DNA of 64,000 bases, from NCBI GenBank assembly GCA_905182275.1, contig CAJJAU010000003.1, positions 1 to 64,000 on the forward strand. The letters run 5' to 3'. The notes beneath the pieces are model-generated. The model saw nothing but the letters and a program-made list of their open reading frames with translations, was not told where the DNA came from and made no database searches. Shown here one piece after another: positions 37,270 to 39,339 of this stretch (its first letter is position 1; every line of letters begins with the position of its first letter). Source of the DNA: a gamma proteobacterium HTCC2207. Lineage in GTDB: Bacteria > Pseudomonadota > Gammaproteobacteria > Pseudomonadales > Porticoccaceae. The position numbers were made by a program, and so were the translations under genes.

Positions 37270-37384
37270 GGTGGCCCTCTTTGGTCCCCTCGCAACAGCC
37301 AGCTGTGAACCCCGCCAGGCCCGGAAGGGAGCAACGGTAGTAGTTACGCTGTGTGCCGAGGTGCGGCTATTGAGGGTCGCCACC
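37270..37384 (+). ncRNA. ffs: Signal recognition particle 4.5S RNA
   Basis: This 115-base RNA forms a long hairpin with ends GGTGGC and GCCACC. Near the tip it has the conserved domain IV elements: CAGGCCCGGAAGGGAGCA with the GGAA tetraloop and the symmetric and asymmetric internal loops that bind Ffh. Together with Ffh it targets inner-membrane proteins to SecYEG. The position immediately upstream of dnaX is that of Pseudomonas. No separate terminator is obvious between it and dnaX. Confidence 0.95.
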
Positions 37385-37449: not shown

Positions 37450-39339
37450 ATGAGCTATCAAGTACTTGCCCGCAAATGGCGTCCTAAATCTTTTTCTGAA
37501 ATGGCAGGGCAGGAGCATGTGCTCCAAGCTCTTATCAATGCCTTAGATAACGATCGTTTACATCATGCCTACCTATTTACAGGTACTCGAGGTGTCGGCA
37601 AAACCACCATAGGGCGGATTCTATCCAAGTGCCTTAACTGCGAGGTAGGTATTTCTTCTGTCCCTTGCGGAGAGTGCACAAGCTGTAATGAGATCGATAG
37701 TGGGCGCTTCATTGATCTGATCGAAGTAGATGCCGCATCTCGCACTGGTGTTGATGATATGCGAGATCTTTTAGATAACGTCCAATATGCACCGTCTCGC
37801 GGGCGCTTTAAGATCTATCTTATTGACGAAGTCCACATGTTGTCAAAATCTAGTTTTGCGGCCTTACTCAAAACTCTCGAGGAACCGCCCGCTCACGTTA
37901 AATTTTTATTTGCTACCACCGACCCTCAAAAGCTACCAATTACGGTTTTATCAAGATGTTTACAATTTAATCTTAAAAATTTAAGCGCGGAGCGTATTAC
38001 CGAGCACCTTAAATTTGTCCTTGGTGAAGAGCAGGTTCCCTTTGAAGAAGCCGGTCTCTGGTGTTTGGGGCGCGCTGCTGACGGTAGTATGCGCGATGCT
38101 CTAAGTTTAACCGACCAAGCTGTAGGGCATGGCGGTGGAAGCATCAGTGAGGCGGATGTGACCGCAATGCTGGGGTCAATTGAACGTCGTTATGTGGTAG
38201 ATGTTTGTCAAGCCTTGGCCAGTCAAAGCGGACCTGATTTGTTGGCGGCTATAGGCCAGATGGCGGAGCAATCCCCTGATTACGATGCTGCACTTGGCGA
38301 AGTACTGTCACTTTGGCATCAGGTTGCTATTTTACAGACCGTACCCGAAGCTCTGGATCCAAGTATTAGCCACTATAAAGAACTGGCGAACCTGTCTGAG
38401 TCGGTGTCTCGTGAAGATGTTCAGCTGTTTTATCAGATATGTTTGCTGGGTCGAAAAGACCTGCCGCTCGCACCTGAGCAGCGATCTGGCTTTGAGATGG
38501 TAATGTTGCGTGCTTTGGCGTTCCGTCCAGCCACGAACGGACGTCCCGTCAACGGTAATTTGCTTCCTCCGGAGGTGGAGCCTTCTGTAAAAAAGTCTGA
38601 TCAGGCATCGCCTGCTGAAAGTGAGGATGCAGTAGTTTCGATCATTTCGTCTCCAGTAGCTCCTGATGGCGCCAACAGGCCGCTTGAAAACGTGCCTGAA
38701 TTGGCCGTAGCTATCGAGCCGGATCCACAATCAGTAGCAGAAATCGAAGCTGAAACTGAAACTGAAACTGAAACTGAAACTGAAACTGAAACTGAAACTG
38801 AAACTGAAACTGAAACTGAAGATCAGCCTAACGATGACCTCATTGTTGAAGGGGTAGATAAGGCCGGAAAAAATAACATCGAAGTGCAAGCGCCGAACCA
38901 CAATGAGCCGCGTGAGAAAGATATTAGCCCAATAGTTCGGGTTAGTCTAAATGAGTTCTCGCCCAGTAATTGGATTGAGGTTCGGAGTCATTTAGATATA
39001 GGCGCGTCCTTAGGCGAAATTGCCAGTCATTGCCTTTTTACTGGACGCGATCAAGATGCATTGGTCTTTGTGATTGATAATCAAGAGAACAGTCTATATG
39101 ACAGTTCTCATCAAGAGAGCCTAGGAATAGCCCTTAGCGACTATTTTGATCATCCGATAAATGTGGTGATCAGCTCTGGAGTGGCTGAGCAAGAGACTCC
39201 TAGGGCGGCTAGCATGCGCGATACTGCTGAACGGCATGCGGCTGCAGTGGATCGTTTAAACTCCGATACTGCGGTAGTTCAGTTCAAGCAGCTTTTTGAT
39301 GGAAGTCTTGATGAAAGCTCCGTTAAACCAATAGATTGA
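37450..39339 (+). CDS. dnaX: DNA polymerase III subunits tau and gamma
   Basis: The 629-residue tau protein is the clamp-loader ATPase that also ties polymerase cores and DnaB together. Domain I has Walker [10 protein letters not shown] near residue 45, a four-Cys zinc module (CLNCEV...CGECTSC, residues about 64-79), DEVHM and the SRC motif. The C-terminal polymerase-binding domain begins near 495. The linker holds an (Glu-Thr) run encoded by a hexanucleotide repeat. A slippery A6G site at codons 381-382 with an upstream Shine-Dalgarno and a downstream hairpin should yield a 383-residue gamma by -1 frameshifting. ybaB starts 7 bases downstream. Confidence 0.96.
38571..38614 (+). promoter_or_regulatory. 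Programmed -1 ribosomal frameshift cassette in dnaX
   Basis: GGAGG and GGAG (38571-38580) form an internal Shine-Dalgarno, followed after 8 bases by the heptamer A-AAA-AAG (38589-38595) in the correct frame (codons 381-382). CAGGC and GCCTG (38602-38614) form a hairpin 6 bases downstream. After a -1 slip the ribosome reads GTC then TGA at 38598-38600, ending gamma at residue 383. The design is that of E. coli dnaX. Confidence 0.85.
38755..38820 (+). repeat. Hexanucleotide tandem repeat (ACTGAA) x11 in dnaX
   Basis: Eleven perfect copies of ACTGAA (66 bases), preceded by a related GCTGAA unit, encode Thr-Glu repeats in the tau linker. The unit is a multiple of three, so copy-number change would not alter the reading frame. 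Confidence 0.97.

Follow-up and report, generated by a model that had tools for sequence, protein, structure and literature searches.

The dnaX locus and its internal signals

The window, i.e., the whole stretch of 64,000 nucleotides analysed here, belongs to a genome of 2.0 Mb (88 contigs, assembly 91% complete) and carries dnaX on the forward strand at positions 37450–39339, flanked by a small SRP RNA on one side and by ybaB and recR on the other. The bacterial small SRP RNA (37279–37375, forward strand; Rfam RF00169, 72.8 bits) lies 5' of dnaX and is mentioned as context only. The reading frame, which runs from the ATG at 37450 to the stop codon at 39337–39339 (both read from the sequence), encodes tau, a protein of 629 aa with a predicted mass of 68.7 kDa that scores over the cut-offs of NF005942 and TIGR02397. 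According to Pfam, DnaX domain III (PF12169) occupies residues 232–357, and tau domain V (PF12170) occupies residues 506–625; therefore, a DnaX protein ending at residue 383 would retain domains I–III without domain V. In E. coli, a -1 frameshift in dnaX makes a short second protein from this clamp-loader gene.

The heptamer A_AAA_AAG (38589–38595, forward strand), formed by codons 381 and 382 plus the preceding base, stands in frame between domain III and domain V of the window gene. It is preceded by an internal Shine-Dalgarno sequence (SD; 38571–38580, forward strand) composed of GGAGG (38571–38575), 13 nt from the heptamer, and GGAG (38577–38580), 8 nt from it, whose duplex energy with the anti-SD, -10.8 kcal/mol, is the strongest among the in-frame positions tested in this dnaX. 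In the -1 frame (38595–38600, forward strand), the codon GTC (38595–38597) is followed immediately by the stop codon TGA (38598–38600), giving a putative gamma protein of 383 aa that would end in KKV and have a predicted mass of 42.0 kDa. Six nucleotides past the heptamer, a 5-bp stem (38602–38614, forward strand; -6.0 kcal/mol) is formed by CAGGC (38602–38606) and GCCTG (38610–38614) around the loop ATC. The preliminary description of this DNA had read the heptamer, both SD motifs, the GTC-TGA end, the stem and the size of gamma (383 aa, about 42 kDa) exactly; the cassette, which it had put at 58 bases, comprises 44 (38571–38614). Frame 0 is open to codon 629, and the layout is accordingly not the inverted one, in which tau arises by the shift.

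Further downstream, (ACTGAA)11 at 38755–38820 (forward strand) encodes a (Thr-Glu)11 tract outside the signal. The tract is 3' of the -1 stop and would, as previously proposed, be confined to tau if the shift occurs. It resembles a recent hexamer expansion with the frame preserved: no comparable exact hexamer tract was found in the other dnaX genes among the 111 loci compared, and the next longest exact tract was 24 nt (L010/L044), with a different unit. The tau linker also contains a second in-frame heptamer, A_AAA_AAT, at 38868–38876 (codon 474), with TAA immediately after it in the -1 frame, probably by chance.

Chance expectation and conservation in the genus

These data raise a key question: do the heptamer and the SD-like bases mark a programmed shift, or are they present by chance or as a consequence of the encoded 12 amino acids? 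Lys-Lys and Pro-Glu-Val-Glu are plain linker residues, and in-frame A_AAA_AAG occurs four times in the 59 largely non-overlapping ORFs of at least 100 codons in the window. The SD duplex energy before these four heptamers is -10.8 kcal/mol in dnaX and -3.3, +0.3 and +0.6 kcal/mol in the others. When the codons of dnaX were shuffled 20,000 times, the heptamer appeared in 3.0% of the shuffles and the heptamer with a -1 stop within 2 codons in 0.6%; only two shuffles (0.01%) combined both with an SD of -9 kcal/mol or lower, and this test set no hairpin requirement.

The same-genus set consisted of 23 genomes, including that of the window, and 21 of them gave dnaX (G001 and G012 gave paralogs only and were left out). 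All 21 genes obtained contain an in-frame A_AAA_AAG past which the -1 frame reaches a stop after 1–3 codons; once redundancy was removed, 19 of 20 same-genus loci had an SD ranking among the strongest 5% of positions in the gene concerned. The linker around the heptamer was hardly alignable (19 loci). The codon preceding AAA AAG was GTA in 12 congeners, GCA in five, CTA in two, and ATA and GGA in one each; the pattern itself requires the wobble A seen in 21 of 21, and what this count shows is that the pattern is missing from none of them. Elsewhere, A occupies the third base of GTN and GCN codons in 19–21% of cases. Lys-Lys at the heptamer was written AAA AAG in every one of these 21 genes, while elsewhere in the 77 dnaX genes analysed below it was AAAAAA 12 times, AAGAAA twice and AAAAAG just once. 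The uniform spelling of Lys-Lys amid a diverging linker, its rarity at other positions and the result of the codon shuffles all argue against a chance origin, which we consider very unlikely even though the window stem taken alone is at chance level (see below). In one genome (L011/L058, G017), frame 0 of dnaX stops at codon 423, about 24 codons past an intact cassette and within a repetitive linker, probably owing to an assembly indel.

RNA structure around the heptamer

Another important question is whether the stem in the window contributes to the signal. Among codon-shuffled dnaX linkers, 14% had a stem of 5 or more pairs at the corresponding position. The 22-nt hairpin alone reached z = -1.36 against dinucleotide shuffles, 16 of 200 of which were equally good, and longer stretches gave z = +0.39 (35 nt), +0.3 (40 nt) and -0.80 (60 nt); against synonymous recoding, the stem region gave z = +0.06. 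Thus, the position of the stem is typical and its strength is about what chance gives. PMC8861025 describes an 11-bp stem for E. coli dnaX and a sevenfold faster translocation when the HIV stem was shortened from 12 to 6 bp; as stem length matters for ribosome pausing, the 5-bp stem of the window should cause little of it.

To place the window among its relatives, 77 non-redundant cassettes were used, obtained by reducing two overlapping locus sets (80 named loci and 30 unnamed ones) at 92% identity around the site, with E. coli included. A set of 30 loci designated as the genus in the folding analyses comprises the same-genus loci and hand-picked named close relatives; L079 was left out, as the gene is cut before the site, as was a cut gene from the order (G024). 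SD strength, scored as the duplex energy with the anti-SD and ranked within each gene, was among the top 5% in 71 of the 77 cassettes. In 40-nt folding windows, the mean energy peaked at -13.3 kcal/mol at +5 nt after the heptamer; most other offsets lay between -4 and -9 kcal/mol, the exceptions being the positions flanking this maximum and a second, upstream maximum of -11.5 kcal/mol. Compared with synonymous recoding, the downstream fold had a mean z of -1.29, with 46 of 77 cassettes below -1, and in the 71 cassettes having a hairpin at 4–9 nt the best one started most often at 6 nt past the heptamer (27 cassettes). Taken together, the folding peak, the preferred hairpin position and the excess over synonymous recoding suggest selection for downstream structure throughout the group, with the underlying sequence changing; the excess in the relatives is a further point against a chance origin.

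Within this group, the window is toward the weak end of downstream structure: its top-scored hairpin in the scan is a different one, at 9 nt, and ranks 56th of 77. The 5-bp stem itself is absent in both top-scoring named relatives (L032 and L033), whose downstream regions nevertheless form other folds that are more stable than those of shuffles (z = -1.29 and -2.74). The preliminary description had named loss of the heptamer and hairpin in close relatives as evidence against its reading. The outcome is split: the heptamer is retained in 21 of 21 genes and the site still tends to be structured, but the particular hairpin is not shared. Its phrase "complete E. coli-style -1 frameshift cassette" applies to the heptamer, the SD and the early -1 stop, supported by the 21 same-genus genes, and does not extend to the hairpin, which is at chance level and less than half the 11 bp of E. 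coli. What is conserved is therefore the heptamer, the SD, the stop and some structure just downstream, and not any given hairpin sequence.

An SD-holding hairpin upstream of the heptamer was also considered as a separate feature. The 36-nt windows ending at the heptamer had a mean z of -1.17 against dinucleotide shuffles, but this fell to -0.52 (t = -3.9; 23 of 77 below -1) when the upstream arm was shuffled with the SD fixed and to a slight -0.22 (t = -1.9; 19 of 77 below -1) with both the SD and the amino acids fixed. This upstream fold probably results for the most part from the SD and the Pro/Glu codons, and it was not retained as a separate feature. No trade-off between SD strength and hairpin strength was found over the 77 loci (Spearman 0.14, p = 0.24).

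Distribution of dnaX layouts in the order and class

The distribution of the cassette was assessed with strict criteria (an in-frame heptamer, an A run of at most 7, a -1 stop within 6 codons and an SD of -5 kcal/mol or lower). The order draw covered 72 of 76 genomes (no match in G186 and G214; G192 and G209 cut and left out): 27 had a strict cassette, six a weak one, nine an A run of at least 9 and 29 neither, and one gene was cut. Two of these 29 are inverted, and in one (G212) the linker contains an N gap. In the class draw (140 genomes, six without a match), the 131 dnaX genes from outside the order included four cassettes, three weak ones, 19 A runs of at least 9 and 100 with neither, with five cut. 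Across the class, the cassette is thus patchily distributed, with an enrichment in this order. Its presence in 72 of the 80 loci of the named set reflects a set composed of the closest relatives.

That the cassette is not universal is a point against the frameshift interpretation. Two other routes to gamma were considered. In the first, RNA polymerase would slip on the A run, as is known for Thermus dnaX. A runs of at least 9 occur in the linkers of nine of the 72 order genomes, and over the 28 such runs of the order and class a stop follows within 5 codons in 56% (-1 frame) and 57% (+1 frame) of cases, the corresponding values for randomly chosen linker positions being 32% and 26%. The window gene, however, has only A6, with no A run of at least 8 past nucleotide 1000, while PMC1088944 reports that, in a large proportion of genomes, selection against slippage-prone runs becomes evident at a length of nine. 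As a strong SD and a stop set for the -1 frame also suit ribosomal slippage better, we regard the transcriptional route as extremely improbable for the window. In two genomes, dnaX consists of two ORFs with A9 (L224, G159) and A11 (L289, G072) runs, frame 0 ending at 379 and 396 aa before a long -1 frame; these genes are candidates for tau made by transcriptional slippage. Two others encode short DnaX proteins of 401 aa (L299, G039) and 364 aa (L294, G170) with, by eye, no evident tau C-terminus in the long frames just downstream, and possibly represent gamma-only DnaX; in G039 a RecR-like frame follows the short dnaX, and the G170 genome is 0.3 Mb.

In the second route, gamma would be produced by proteolysis of tau, as known in Caulobacter (PMC5009743), or tau alone would be needed. 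The 27 of 72 order genomes with no cassette, A9 run or inverted layout (among them G212 with its N gap) are in keeping with it. Nevertheless, it leaves the conservation of the heptamer, the SD and the early -1 stop unexplained, and for the window it is highly improbable. In the window dnaX, the heptamer, the SD and the stop together make a genuine -1 frameshift cassette the most likely explanation.

Three relatives in the same order, i.e., all three genomes examined of the genus g160 (L343 in G218, L344 in G183 and L367 in G239), show the reverse arrangement: frame 0 ends one codon past A_AAA_AAG, with TAG in G183, TAA in G218 and TGA in G239, and the -1 frame is open for 246–296 codons. In G183 and G218, the C-terminus of the -1 shift product aligns to normal tau, while G239 is known from the open frame only. 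SD energies in G183, G218 and G239 are -7.1, -5.6 and -11.8 kcal/mol, and those of the downstream hairpins are -14.7, -20.3 and -16.7 kcal/mol. A cassette of the same kind thus stands in a layout in which gamma ends in frame 0; the shift must work there if tau is made, which supports the frameshift reading of the window site. The three form one clade (SH-aLRT 99) in a quick tree of 28 rows, in which 13 of 25 inner branches are weak. In the sister genus, the one readable genome of two (G238, L368) has the canonical layout, and G237 has an N run at the site. Another contig of G239 carries a further, more distant match to dnaX (L370) with an unreadable start, perhaps a contamination.

The inverted layout itself is already known as a kind: GeneTack lists 17 two-ORF dnaX genes, 12 of them with poly-A stretches (PMC3711429), and Chlorobium phaeobacteroides is named in PMC5009743 as an inverted candidate with E. 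coli-like stimulators. No report of inverted dnaX in this order was found in the open-licence literature searched. These relatives are a more interesting by-product than the window cassette. They constitute a natural experiment in which tau depends on the shift and low-efficiency slippage could hardly sustain replication. Because of this dependence, dnaX frameshift efficiency outside enterobacteria becomes testable with reporters from the sister genera. A broader interpretation, for and against which we see the balance as even, is that the dnaX site of this order acts as a near-even splitter allowing either product to be placed in frame 0. Under this interpretation, the window and the other cassette genomes would have tau in frame 0 and gamma by the shift, and one genus (3/3 genomes examined) would have swapped them while retaining this heptamer together with an SD and a strong hairpin. 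Cassettes, A9+ runs and neither also alternate within the order, and in the window a strong SD would replace a weak hairpin.

Proposed mechanism and comparison with known systems

The window cassette is very probably a programmed -1 ribosomal frameshift site of the E. coli dnaX type. The ribosome would decode codons 381–382 (AAA AAG) with an apparently sole tRNA-Lys (UUU). Base pairing between the internal SD and the 16S rRNA 3' end would hold the ribosome back, perhaps slightly aided by the short stem in front of it. Some of the ribosomes would then re-pair one base back, on AAA AAA, and terminate at TGA after adding a single valine. The shifted product would be gamma (383 aa), with the ATPase, lid and domain III; unshifted ribosomes would yield tau (629 aa), the sole carrier of the Thr-Glu tract and of the polymerase-binding domain. 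The preliminary description stated outright that gamma is made; the E. coli-type site is present and kept in the genus, and from this we infer slippage in this organism. Judging by the signals, the shift is expected to be driven by the heptamer and the SD, the latter carrying more of the stimulation than in E. coli, and the frameshift rate may be below that of E. coli.

Among 24 tRNA matches in the window genome, there is one tRNA-Lys(UUU) and no tRNA-Lys(CUU), and an anticodon-pattern search likewise gave one UUU and zero CUU; in an assembly 91% complete, a CUU gene could be missing. In E. coli, both lysine codons are decoded by a single tRNA-Lys, whose slip is from AAG to AAA (PMC6787027, PMC5009743). 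A search of the window's own assembly (91% complete) for the 16S 3' end pattern gave no match; the standard 3' end was present in 4/4 congeners tested. In the wider draws, the tRNA-Lys(CUU) pattern was detected in 85 of 140 class genomes vs. two of 76 order genomes (one of them doubtful; a match in G215, by eye unlike a tRNA arm, was counted as negative), with imperfect recall, as its UUU twin matches 120 of 140 genomes. A cassette was present in one of 77 genomes with the CUU pattern vs. 33 of 121 without it (two inverted genes counted as cassettes, six cut genes excluded). The CUU pattern is concentrated outside the order; there alone, the figures were 1/76 and 3/50 (p = 0.30), and tree-based independent pairs were too few for a test. 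The raw counts are striking, yet an exclusion between CUU and the cassette is inseparable from ancestry in these samples.

The classification of the window cassette as a further example of a known mechanism is sound, and a textbook recoding site is thereby extended to a marine lineage by statistics rather than by eye. With E. coli dnaX (control locus L031), the window shares A_AAA_AAG, its location past domain III and ahead of the C-terminal domain of tau, the internal SD, the stop after one -1 codon and the place at which a stem starts, 5–6 nt further on. The two differ in the strength of the SD duplex (-10.8 kcal/mol in the window vs. -7.4 in E. coli), in the stem (5 bp and -6.0 kcal/mol vs. 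11 pairs and -18.0 kcal/mol), in the heptamer codon (381 vs. 429) and in the -1 codon (Val vs. Glu). Frameshifting in E. coli dnaX is given as 50% in PMC5009743 and as 70–80% in PMC6787027. Thermus thermophilus likewise obtains gamma and tau from one dnaX gene, but by transcriptional slippage on A9 (PMC1088944), where the window has A6. The two-ORF dnaX genes listed by GeneTack and that of Chlorobium phaeobacteroides resemble the window in the gene and the direction of the shift, while their layout is inverted.
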